From contig NZ_FOCO01000008.1 in the NCBI RefSeq assembly GCF_900110135.1, positions 62,001 through 126,000 on the forward strand: a stretch of DNA of 64,000 bases, given 5' to 3'. Shown piece by piece: positions 2,861-7,604 of this stretch (position 1 is its first letter; every line of letters starts with the position of its first letter). Source of the DNA: Pseudorhodobacter antarcticus. GTDB lineage: Bacteria; Pseudomonadota; Alphaproteobacteria; Rhodobacterales; Rhodobacteraceae. The translations under genes and the position numbers were made by a program. A model generated the notes under the pieces. It searched no databases, was not told the origin of the DNA, and saw nothing but the letters and a program-made list of their open reading frames with translations.

Positions 2861-2926
2861 CGCCCCCTCACCTTGACAATCGGCCCCCGCACGGGCACCC
2901 ACCCCAAAAGCCAGCAGGGGGCCGCC

Positions 2927-3301
2927 ATGACCGACGACCACGATCACCGCGACGATGAAACGGACACCCCCATCCCAAAGGTCAAAAAACCCTCGCGCCA
3001 ACAAGTCTATACTTTGGTGATAGAGGTGGGGCGCAATCCCGGCGACGGCCTGCCCGCCAAGGCCACCGGGGCCGCGTTGATGATCTATGCCAGCGGCGTG
3101 GACGAAGGCGAGGCGGTGCGCGAAACCGTGGCCATCCTGAAACAGGCCGACATGGCCCCCCTCGACGTGTCCGGCTATGGCACCCTCCAGGAACGTCTGG
3201 AATCAGGCGACGAAATCGACGCTGAGGAGCGCGCGCTTATGGATCGCGCGCTGGCCGAAAACTCGGTCATCGTCGCCTCCATGACCCCGTTTTTCGACTG
3301 A
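2927..3301 (+). CDS. Small acidic protein of unknown function
   Basis: A 124-residue soluble protein that I cannot place in a named family. The first 25 residues are very rich in Asp and His (MTDDHDHRDDETDTPIP), followed by a compact alpha/beta-looking body (QVYTLVIEVGRNPGDGLPAKATG) and an acidic C-terminus. No signal peptide or membrane segment is seen. The start at 2927 follows a GGGG-rich ribosome site; an in-frame upstream start exists at 2873 but its extension is low complexity. It follows the PhyH gene by 66 bases on the same strand. The His/Asp-rich head could bind metal, but that is only suggestive. Confidence 0.7.
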   Translation: MTDDHDHRDDETDTPIPKVKKPSRQQVYTLVIEVGRNPGDGLPAKATGAALMIYASGVDEGEAVRETVAILKQADMAPLDVSGYGTLQERLESGDEIDAEERALMDRALAENSVIVASMTPFFD

Positions 3302-3457: not shown

Positions 3458-4522
3458 TCACGCAGCCGTGCGCCGCCCCGTCCGGCCCAGCATATCCAAC
3501 AGCGGAATCGTCTCATACCCCATGATCACCTTATGGGGCAGGGTGGCCGCATCCCATCCGGTGGCCTGTCCTGTGCCCTGCCCTGTGGCCTGCCCAAATC
3601 CCCGCAGATGATTGTGGGTCAACAGCCGGCAATCATCCGCCCGGATCAATTGCGGCGGCCCAATATCCAGCGAAATGCAGGCCGTGACCGCGCGCCGCAA
3701 ATCCATCATCGCCGCGCGCCCATCGGTGACGTGCCGCGCCTCGGTCAGCACGGTTTCATCCCAAAACAAATACTCCACCTCATCGCCCGACAGCGCGATC
3801 AACTGGTCTGATGATACCAAAATATCCGTTTCCACCCCAAAATATGGCGCGCGCAGCATGACCGGGCTGAACGACCCGCGGCTGGGCAAATCCATACGCC
3901 GCAACGACCGCAGGCAGGCATAATCGCCGCTTTCCGTCAGCAGCAAATCACCGGGCCGCAGGTTGCCCGCCGCACAGGGGCCGCCCGCCGTTTCAATCGG
4001 GGTGGTCAGGCCAATCCATGGCGCGCGTTCCGGCAAGGTGCTACCTTCGGTCACGCCAAACCACAGCACCGATTTGTGGCGCCGCGCGCGGTCCGACCCG
4101 GCGCAAATTTGCAGGATATCATCCATCATCAACGGCATCGGATTGCGGCCGCGCGTGCTGCGCCCCTCACCTTGTCCGGGCAAATCCAGCGCCAGCGTCC
4201 AGCTTTTGTTCGGGGCATCCCAGCTAAAAGAAATCCGCGCCACCCCCACGCTGGGCAAACCCAACGGGCCGGGCAGGCTGTGGCGCAGCAACCGCTCGGC
4301 TTGGCGGTGCAACACCACAACCCCCGCCGCCTCATCGACAAAAATCGACAAGGTTCGGGGCCAGGCGTCATCGCTTTTGAAATCCAGCAAAATGGTGGAC
4401 CCTTGCAGCGGCAGTTCAAATTCCAAGACCAAACTTGCCTTGGACAGCAAGCTAAGGCCCGCCGCCCCATCCAGCGGGGTCGCGCGATCGGACAAAGCCA
4501 CCCATTGGGTCATCCCGGCCAT
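3458..4522 (-). CDS. Hint-domain-like protein lacking Hint catalytic residues
   Basis: A 354-residue protein starting 2 bases after its partner's stop codon. Residues 25-115 look like an all-beta domain (jelly-roll or LamG-like). Residues about 168-305 follow the course of a Hint domain: TPIETAGGPCAAGNLRPGDLLL matches the block TAILTPDGEVAVESLLPGDL of the neighbour, and APYFGVETDILVSSDQLI matches AGTFGPHADLMVSPLHRI. The nucleophilic Cys expected just before TPI is absent (PWIGLT) and the His of SPLHRI is Gln240. Self-splicing or cleavage is therefore not expected. A short repeat, QATGQGTGQATG, stands near 310-322. No signal peptide. The role may be structural or as partner of the upstream protein. 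Confidence 0.75.
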   Translation of the reverse strand: MAGMTQWVALSDRATPLDGAAGLSLLSKASLVLEFELPLQGSTILLDFKSDDAWPRTLSIFVDEAAGVVVLHRQAERLLRHSLPGPLGLPSVGVARISFSWDAPNKSWTLALDLPGQGEGRSTRGRNPMPLMMDDILQICAGSDRARRHKSVLWFGVTEGSTLPERAPWIGLTTPIETAGGPCAAGNLRPGDLLLTESGDYACLRSLRRMDLPSRGSFSPVMLRAPYFGVETDILVSSDQLIALSGDEVEYLFWDETVLTEARHVTDGRAAMMDLRRAVTACISLDIGPPQLIRADDCRLLTHNHLRGFGQATGQGTGQATGWDAATLPHKVIMGYETIPLLDMLGRTGRRTAA

Positions 4523-4524
4523 CC

Positions 4525-6099
4525 CTATGCCGCGCGGCTGTCTGGGAACAGCAAATGCGCCTCAAACGGGCGCAGGGTGCGGCGGGCGGCGGGGCTGTAT
4601 CCATTGCCCGTTTCGGGGTCGATTTCTGGGAACAAGGCGCAAATCTCGGCCATGATATCGGCCTCAAAACTCTTGGTGGTTTGCGGGCCGGGCAAAAAGC
4701 TTTCGGTGGCCAGCCCTTCTGAGAAAATCACTTGATGGCGGTCAAACAGCAAGTGAACATATTCAACCTCCCCCCCCTCCATATAGCGGACGGAGCTGCC
4801 ATTGACCAAATCTTTGGCGGCCACCAACACGTCGGTTTCGCCGAACAGCAGTTCTGCCAAACTGTCGCGGATCAGGATGCGGTGCAGGGGTGACACCATC
4901 AAATCCGCATGCGGGCCAAAGGTGCCTGCCCGAATATGGACCGGGGCAAAGCTGCCCGTGGCCGCCACCACACGCCGCCCAATCCAACGCAACGGCTGCG
5001 CGCCATCATCATGGGTCATCACCAAATCGCCGGGCAGCAAGCTTTCCACCGCCACCTCCCCATCCGGGGTCAAAATCGCGGTGCCCGCCACAAAACAGGG
5101 GATAGAGTTGACTGTGACAAAACCGACATCCGTGTTCCCCAACCCGTCAGAAATCGTATAGGTGAAGGTCTTGGATTCGATCTGCCCGTCGCCGATGACG
5201 GTAAAGGTTCCATCCGCGTTCAACTGCACGGTTTGCCCCGATGGCAGCGTGACGGTGGACCCCACCGTGACCGCCACCCCATTGATATGGGTGATCACCA
5301 GCGTGCCGCCCGGCAGCATCAGATCATTGTCCAGCACGTTGACGGTTTTGGACCCGTAAGGGTTGATGTTTACGTTGTCATCGGTGGCAATCAACACCGT
5401 TTGGACAGAGTTGGCAGCGATCAACAGGTTGCTGTCATAATTCGCATCAGCAGCGTCGGCAATGCCGATACGGATGGAATTTGTCACGCCTGCGTTGACC
5501 GGCATGGTCAGCGACAGCGTGATGGTGAACCCATCCATTTCGGTGTTGAACGCATCATTTGTGTTGCTGACGAACAGGTTTTGCTGGGTGTTGCCGTTGA
5601 TATTGTTGACCGACGTGGCCCCATTGCCAACCGTGATGGGCACATGTGTGCCGTTCACCCAAACGCCGACTACATCATTGAACTGGCTGTTGATAAATTC
5701 GGGGTATTCTTCAGAGGAGAATACAAAGCTCATCGTCATGGTGTTGCCGGTGGGCGTAAAATCCACGTCCATCCACACCGCATCATAGGTGTTGGTGCCG
5801 GCGATGGTGTTGAAATCTGATCGGTTGTCGAACCCCGAGGTGTTGGTCGATGTTCCTGTGGATCGGTTTGGGTCGCCACTGCTTTGGGTAAAGTCGCGGA
5901 CGTTGCCGGTCGACATGATCACCCCTGTTTGCGACGGCGTCACACCTGCCGACAGCCCACCGTTGGTGTAAATCGCCGAGGAATTGGCCGGCCCGGAATA
6001 GCTGGCACTGTTCACAGTGACGCCCGGCCCGAAAATAGTATTCGCCATCGCCAAAGCCGAAGCGTTGGTTTGATAGCCGAGTTCTGCACCTGTCGCCAC
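4525..6099 (-). CDS. Secreted choice-of-anchor L / cadherin-like / Hint-domain protein
   Basis: A 524-residue, probably exported protein. With the start at 6099, residues about 10-235 form a choice-of-anchor-L domain (ANTIFGPGVTVNSASYSG; MSFVFSSEEYPEF), 240-332 a cadherin/VCBS-like domain (VNVLDNDLMLPGG; TFTYTISDG), and about 333-480 a Hint domain opening PCFVAGTAILTPDGEVAVE with the nucleophile Cys335 and a later SPLHRI with His406. Hint domains perform protein autoprocessing. No N-terminal signal is seen; type I secretion is usual for such proteins (inference). The GTG at 6099 has a GGGGA ribosome site; the frame extends to a TTG at 6132 without one. It forms a two-gene operon with the degenerate Hint gene. 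Confidence 0.85.
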   Translation of the reverse strand: MATGAELGYQTNASALAMANTIFGPGVTVNSASYSGPANSSAIYTNGGLSAGVTPSQTGVIMSTGNVRDFTQSSGDPNRSTGTSTNTSGFDNRSDFNTIAGTNTYDAVWMDVDFTPTGNTMTMSFVFSSEEYPEFINSQFNDVVGVWVNGTHVPITVGNGATSVNNINGNTQQNLFVSNTNDAFNTEMDGFTITLSLTMPVNAGVTNSIRIGIADAADANYDSNLLIAANSVQTVLIATDDNVNINPYGSKTVNVLDNDLMLPGGTLVITHINGVAVTVGSTVTLPSGQTVQLNADGTFTVIGDGQIESKTFTYTISDGLGNTDVGFVTVNSIPCFVAGTAILTPDGEVAVESLLPGDLVMTHDDGAQPLRWIGRRVVAATGSFAPVHIRAGTFGPHADLMVSPLHRILIRDSLAELLFGETDVLVAAKDLVNGSSVRYMEGGEVEYVHLLFDRHQVIFSEGLATESFLPGPQTTKSFEADIMAEICALFPEIDPETGNGYSPAARRTLRPFEAHLLFPDSRAA

Positions 6100-6446
6100 T
6101 GCTGTCCCCAATTTTATGAGAGGACAGGCCAAACGCCTTCACTGCCGGTTATCCCGGCTTAAGTCACTTGCTAACCTACTCGTTCGGGCACGTTGGCCCA
6201 GCGTTCGCCCTGCCTCAGGACTTATTATTAAGGTTTATTAACCTTTCGTGCAGGGCTTTGTCACGGTTTTATAATTTTGTTTGCCTTTCGTTAACGGTTG
6301 ACGCTGCATAATCGTGACACCTTTGCAACAATGGGTTTGCCTTTTGGGCCTTGGGGTTCATCTTAACACTGGTTGCGCGTTGGGGGATGTGCGGGTAACG
6401 GTTGCGTGATGATATCCCCGCGCCGCATCCAAACCGGACCATATTC
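6100..6446. other. Divergent intergenic region upstream of the Hint operon and dapE
   Basis: 347 bases with no convincing gene. The middle is AT-rich and must hold the promoters for both directions. An inverted repeat AAGGTT-TATT-AACCTT lies at 6230-6245, and TTAA-N6-TTAAC overlaps it, close to but one base short of the alphaproteobacterial CtrA pattern TTAA-N7-TTAAC. The small palindrome CGTTAACG follows near 6290. These are candidate regulatory sites only. Confidence 0.4.
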
Positions 6447-7604
6447 ATGACCCAAATCCATCCCCCCGTAGACCCCGTAGCACTGACCGCCGCATTGATC
6501 CGTTGCCCGTCGGTCACCCCGGCCGAGGGCGGCGCGCTGGTCTTGCTGGAGGCGCTGCTGACAGAGGCGGGTTTTGCCTGCACGCGGATTGATCGGGGCG
6601 GGATTTGCAACCTGTTTGCGCGCTGGGGGCGGGCCGGGGCGAACCGGACCTTTGGGTTCAATGGGCACACCGATGTGGTGCCTTTGGGTGATGTGGCGGC
6701 GTGGACGCAAGACCCGTTTGGCGCGGCGGTGGTGGACGGGTTCATGTACGGGCGCGGCGCCACGGATATGAAATCGGGCGTTGCCGCCTTTGCCGCCGCT
6801 GCCATTGATTTCGTGCGCAACACCCCGCCCGATGGTGCTGTGGTGCTGGCGATCACGGGCGATGAGGAGGACGTGGCGCTGGATGGCACCGTTGCCCTGC
6901 TGGATTGGATGGACGCCAATAATGAAGCGATGAGCGTGTGTTTGGTGGGCGAACCCACTTGCCCGAATGTGATGGGTGAAATGATGAAGGTGGGGCGGCG
7001 CGGGTCGCTGACCGCGCATTTTGTGGCCCGCGGCGTGCAGGGCCATTCCGCCTATCCACACCGCGCCAACAATCCGCTGACCGCGATGGTCGCGCTGATA
7101 GACCGTTTGGCCCGGTATGAATTGGACACAGGCACCGACCATTTCGACGCCTCCACCCTTGCGATCACCACGATTGATACGGGCAACACGGCCACCAACG
7201 TCATCCCCGCGCAATGCCGCGCCACGGTGAACATTCGGTTCAATGATGCCCATTCGGGGGCCAGCATTTCGGATTGGCTGCGCGCGCAGGCGGGCAAAAC
7301 CAGCGCTGCAACCGATGTGGCATTTGATGTGACCATCAAAGTTTCTGGCGAGAGTTTCGTGACCCCGCCCGGCGCGCTGTCGGATTTGGTGGCGGCGGCG
7401 GTGCAGGCCGAAACAGGCATCACCCCCACGCTGTCGACCACAGGCGGCACATCCGATGCGCGCTTTGTCAAAGATCACTGCCCGGTGGTGGAATTTGGTC
7501 TGGTTGGCAAAACCATGCACCAAGTTGACGAACGGGTGGAGGTGGCGCAGATCCACCAGCTTAAATCCATCTACACTCGTATTTTGACGGATTATTTTGC
7601 ATGA
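6447..7604 (+). CDS. dapE: Succinyl-diaminopimelate desuccinylase
   Basis: Zinc-dependent amidohydrolase of the M20 family, 385 residues, releasing LL-2,6-diaminopimelate from its N-succinyl form in lysine and peptidoglycan precursor synthesis; cytoplasmic. Metal and catalytic residues are visible: GHTDVVP with His74 and Asp76, [10 protein letters not shown] with the bridging Asp107, and [11 protein letters not shown] with Glu140/Glu141. The C-terminal KTMHQVDE carries the last zinc His. Length matches the family (about 375-385). The start at 6447 fits the family N-terminus ([18 protein letters not shown]); an upstream in-frame start at 6402 is less likely. The next gene overlaps its stop (ATGA). 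Confidence 0.96.

Follow-up and report, generated by a model that had tools for sequence, protein, structure and literature searches.

BIL domains and the Hog domain of Hedgehog proteins have the Hint fold in common, together with an N-terminal cleavage chemistry. Inteins carry a C-terminal His-Asn, and a Pro at position -1 of the scissile bond is unfavourable in those that have been studied. In class 3 inteins, a WCT motif with a block-F Cys makes up a catalytic triad with the block-B His (PMC7664689). Hint_2 domains (PF13403) are reported to be over-represented in fast-responding marine Rhodobacteraceae (PMC12487129), and a search for literature on the function of Hint_2 or on Hint pseudoenzymes found nothing direct.

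The window analysed here, a stretch of 64,000 nucleotides from Pseudorhodobacter antarcticus, contains two neighbouring genes on the minus strand whose products, P1 and P2, both match Hint_2. P1 (4525..6099; 524 amino acids) starts at a GTG, in place of which its orthologues have an ATG, and P2 (3458..4522; 354 amino acids, ATG start) lies directly downstream on the same strand, with 2 bases between the two genes. On the plus strand, the neighbours are a divergent dapE gene (6402..7604), which encodes an M20 peptidase and is also found beside P1/P2 in other genomes, and, convergent with P2, a gene for a small conserved protein without a Pfam match (2873..3301). No signal peptide was evident in P1 or P2 when the sequences were inspected by eye.

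Profile searches of P1 identified a choice-of-anchor-L domain (residues 18-232; NF038133, E 3e-48), a Big_9 domain (residues 237-331) and a Hint_2 domain (residues 334-471, corresponding to converted coordinates 4687..5100; E 4.7e-52), all on the minus strand and followed by a C-terminal tail that holds an RPFEAHLL motif. With a score of 176.7 bits against a curated cut-off of 28.4, and with Cys335, Ser403, His406, His449, Asp453 and His455 all kept, including the catalytic Cys335 and His406, P1 is a clear member of the Hint_2 proteins of Rhodobacteraceae. No known toxin domain was found in P1 using the Pfam and NCBIfam profiles, with which families outside these libraries would be missed. The AlphaFold2 model of P1 was poor (pLDDT 58), and P1 and P2 were therefore compared by alignment rather than by superposition.

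P2 also scored above the curated Hint_2 cut-off (51.6 versus 28.4 bits; E 1.8e-13, residues 174-280), its match beginning at profile position 7, past the Cys; Hint_2 matches were obtained in 19 out of 19 P2 orthologues, with E-values of up to 1. The AlphaFold2 model of P2, built with 15 sequences as input, had a pLDDT of 88 and a pTM of 0.83. In this model, residues 164-308 (3599..4033, minus strand) have a predicted Hint fold, for which the best structure match was BIL2 of T. thermophila (Z 12.6, rmsd 2.4 over 126 residues), with further matches to the MchDnaB intein (Z 12.5) and a C. thermocellum BIL (Z 12.0). The structural alignment, which is independent of the sequence alignment, placed intein residue 1 on residue 169 of P2. 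Residues 1-162 (4037..4522, minus strand) are predicted to form a ConA-like jellyroll of the CBM40/LamG type, matching the NanB lectin domain (Z 11.9, rmsd 3.3 over 140 residues) and CBM40s (Z about 11); no Pfam match was found for this N-terminal domain in the 19 orthologues. Matches to Botulinum neurotoxin binding domains, which had lower Z, were taken as common jellyroll matches and not as a sign of kinship.

The alignment of the two proteins paired Cys335 of P1 with Trp169 of P2, at the nucleophile position, and His406 with Gln240, at the position of the TxxH His. Among 64 P1s adjacent to P2, Cys335 was kept in 63, and Trp372, Ser403, His406, His449, Asp453 and His455 in all 64. Among the P2s, Cys was lost from the nucleophile position in 98 out of the 101 sequences and kept in 3, with Ser present in 19; the block-B His position was occupied by Gln in 81-83 of the 99-101 P2 rows (83 out of 101 in the larger set) and by His in 12 out of 101, a pattern beyond chance. 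Substitutions were also found at other sites that are invariant in P1, His449 being replaced by Gln in 62 out of 99 P2s and Asp453 by Pro in 55 out of 99, and Ser403 was replaced by Ala in 58 P2s (99-101 rows). The scaffold was mostly kept, as seen at Gly347, Gly357, Asp358, Thr362, Tyr447, Gly462 and Glu466 (P1 numbering). The P2 of the window has neither the N-terminal Cys or Ser nucleophile nor the block-B TxxH His of a self-processing Hint domain, and its block-F position holds Ser284; across the P2s this position is mostly Gln, and Cys was not among its commonest residues in 99 sequences. Rescue of P2 by a class 3 intein mechanism is unlikely in view of Ser284 at block F, and because the class 3 triad needs the very His that is absent from P2 (PMC7664689). 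Not all P2s appear to be dead, since one small subclade (L063, L107 and L134, with L079 added by eye) keeps both the Cys and the His.

The preliminary description of this stretch was accurate as to the coordinates of the two genes, their spacing, the presence of Cys335 and His406 in P1 and, in P2, the missing Cys and the replacement of the His by Gln240. Its view of P2 as a degenerate Hint protein was likewise borne out by superposition of the model on solved Hint structures, which points to a real fold. It did not include the N-terminal jellyroll or the substitutions at His449 and Asp453.

To determine the distribution of P2, we used a profile built from 19 P2s on 296 genera sampled from the Rhodobacteraceae-type family. 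Full-length P2 was found in 137 of the 296 genera and full-length P1 in 112; 90 genera had both proteins, 47 had P2 only, 22 had P1 only and 137 had neither, giving an odds ratio for co-occurrence of 12 when genera are counted as independent and kinship is ignored. Relatives carrying P2 include Pseudorhodobacter, Rhodobacter sp. SW2, Szabonella and Tabrizicola. A plasmid search gave no match to P2.

About 100 P2 loci from relatives were compared, of which 99 were inspected for neighbouring genes. The gene order was rnr, dapE, P1 (where present), P2 and the small convergent ORF; dapE adjoined the P2 locus, in divergent orientation, in 98 out of the 99 loci, and the small ORF was near P2 in 80. 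P1 lay directly upstream of P2, on the same strand, in 67 loci, so that the pair, for which relatives had been proposed as a check, is conserved in the family; P2 stood alone in the remaining 32. In 27 of these 32 P2-only genomes, no full-length P1 was found anywhere in the genome, and each of the 27 holds at least five further Hint_2 domains. At least 11 genomes show the reverse arrangement, with P1 beside dapE and no P2. On a DapE tree, the presence of P1 needs 24 changes, about 8 of which are forced by well-supported branches, the tree itself being weakly resolved.

Several loci differed in other respects. At about 26 loci of relatives, P2 is followed immediately by a same-strand ORF of about 373 amino acids, which by eye resembles a transporter substrate-binding or ion-channel protein, and 18 loci (e.g., L110, L122 and L135) have a second P1-like gene a few kb downstream of P2. 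At one locus (L059, genome G017), P1 is split into two frames and P2 is without its N-terminal part.

The dN/dS of P2 (NG86) ranged from 0.06 to 0.17 against its three closest orthologues and was 0.30 against the more distant L051, values that are rough because dS is near saturation. As judged from these sequence comparisons, P2 is under purifying selection, and the breadth of its distribution (137 out of 296 genera) together with the dN/dS speaks against its being a recent pseudogene. Its gene is inherited vertically in the Rhodobacteraceae-type family, keeps a fixed locus and persists where P1 is missing.

The genome to which the window belongs gave 17 Hint_2 matches. Elsewhere in this genome, a degenerate Hint_2 domain without the Cys keeps the His (L009; G000:C26:50049-50474), and another (L015; G000:C35:101946-102329), which groups with a domain from another genome of the same genus, has lost both. 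A further Hint_2 domain extends across two overlapping frames, probably through a frameshift (L014/L016; G000:C109:3429-3867).

The pair had previously been read as a duplication followed by loss of autoprocessing in P2. In a phylogeny built from 82 Hint domains (139 columns), those of P2 formed one clade (support 98/88). A 99/91 branch stood between it and P1, with almost every other Hint_2 domain on the P1 side; two further Hint_2 domains of the window genome joined the P2 side. Forcing P1 and P2 into one clade cost 18.8 log units and was not rejected (AU p 0.25). This result, the presence of Hint_2 in both proteins and a similar FEA-type motif at both C-termini, detected by a regular expression, are compatible with a recent tandem duplication of P1, with P2 decaying and being retained as an immunity-like protein. 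We nevertheless consider such a history very improbable: the P2 clade is family-wide and stands apart from P1, the N-terminal domains of the two proteins are unrelated, P2 is under purifying selection and occurs without P1 at 32 loci, and P1 has no recognised toxin domain. Insofar as the Hint sequences can tell, P1 is not favoured as the sister of P2, and there are better readings of its origin than a recent local duplication.

Adjacency in 67 loci, with a gap of only 2 bases in the window, and the strong co-occurrence across genera (kinship ignored) hint at a joint function of P1 and P2. P2 might partner P1, or perhaps other Hint_2 proteins, several of which are retained in the P1-less genomes; the dead Hint domain would then hold an active one uncleaved until export, or the proteins would co-assemble at the surface. 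This is the main alternative to the reading favoured below and appears rather unlikely, as P1 and P2 have been lost independently at the same locus and Gln was about as common at the dead site without P1 (28 out of the 32 loci) as with it (53 out of the 67 loci). With 32 loci that have P2 but no P1, and at least 11 that have P1 but no P2, there is no support for either protein depending on the other. Of the role as binding partner, inhibitor or immunity-like protein suggested in the preliminary description, the obligate form is not supported in view of these independent losses, which do not agree with the obligate linkage of toxin and immunity genes; a looser partnership with other Hint_2 proteins may still apply. 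It is also improbable that Hint chemistry persists in P2 in a slowed or modified form, for instance in the subclade with Cys and His. That subclade (L063, L107 and L134) and the varied active sites tolerated in the Hint superfamily (PMC7664689) would agree with such a chemistry, but the P2 of the window has neither Cys1 nor the TxxH His, nor the His449 and Asp453 that are invariant in P1, and at the block-F position Cys is not among the commonest residues in 99 P2s.

On balance, we consider P2 somewhat likely to be a conserved Hint pseudoenzyme, namely a lectin-like protein that retains its C-terminal module, encoded beside a presumed Hint-processed secreted adhesin, P1. P2 has kept the predicted Hint fold and lost the residues for the N-to-S acyl shift, and self-cleavage would be absent. 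Because these residues are lost, the ConA-like lectin domain would stay joined to an inert Hint module, with no release; its jellyroll, judging from the fold, may bind glycan. If P1 behaves like Hedgehog and BIL proteins, it would be cut in front of Cys335, and the cut would release or transfer its adhesin-like head (choice-of-anchor-L and Ig). This N-terminal cleavage is plausible from the intact residues of P1; it is not assured, because residue 334, which would directly precede the scissile bond (position -1), is Pro in 63 out of the 64 adjacent P1s, a residue unfavourable in the inteins studied.

Export of both P1 and P2 may be Sec-independent and type I-like. This route is suggested by the lack of an evident signal peptide in either protein and by a P1-type head associated with RTX elsewhere in the genome. 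In the latter protein (L183; G000:C43:3602-4612), a choice-of-anchor-L and Big_9 head is followed by RTX nonapeptide repeats, with no Hint domain, and the presence of RTX in place of Hint points to exported cargo. Type I secretion (T1SS) HlyD genes exist in the genome, none of them on the contig of the window.

More tentatively, it is possible that P2 represents a family-wide Hint pseudoenzyme in which, with the catalytic positions removed, the retained Hint fold would serve non-covalent binding or retention instead of self-cleavage. The same cell has many active Hint_2 surface proteins, which such a module might regulate or assemble with. A conserved, inactive, lectin-fused Hint domain would offer a natural control for roles of the Hint module besides cleavage. 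Moreover, the three natural states of the locus (P1 with P2, P2 alone and P1 alone) make the question of partnership directly testable.

Compared with other Hint_2 proteins, P2 is without the nucleophile and the block-B His, and has a lectin-like domain instead of RTX or choice-of-anchor-L parts. Among Hint structures, it is nearest to BIL2 of T. thermophila and to class 3 inteins; the N-terminal cleavage chemistry of BIL and Hog domains would fit P1, whereas P2, without Cys1 and the His, differs from them. Where inteins have their C-terminal His-Asn, P1 has Glu-Ser in an alignment made by eye, so intein-type C-terminal cleavage is not expected. Residues 1-162 of P2 are predicted to have the same jellyroll as the CBM40, LamG and pentraxin ConA-like lectins (Z about 11-12), with 8-15% identity and no Pfam match. 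The head of P1 matches the choice-of-anchor-L proteins (NF038133), but its C-terminal part is Hint_2, whereas the paralogue in the same genome has RTX repeats. P2 is a lectin-fused member of Hint_2 without the catalytic residues, independently maintained and otherwise of a known Hint_2 kind.
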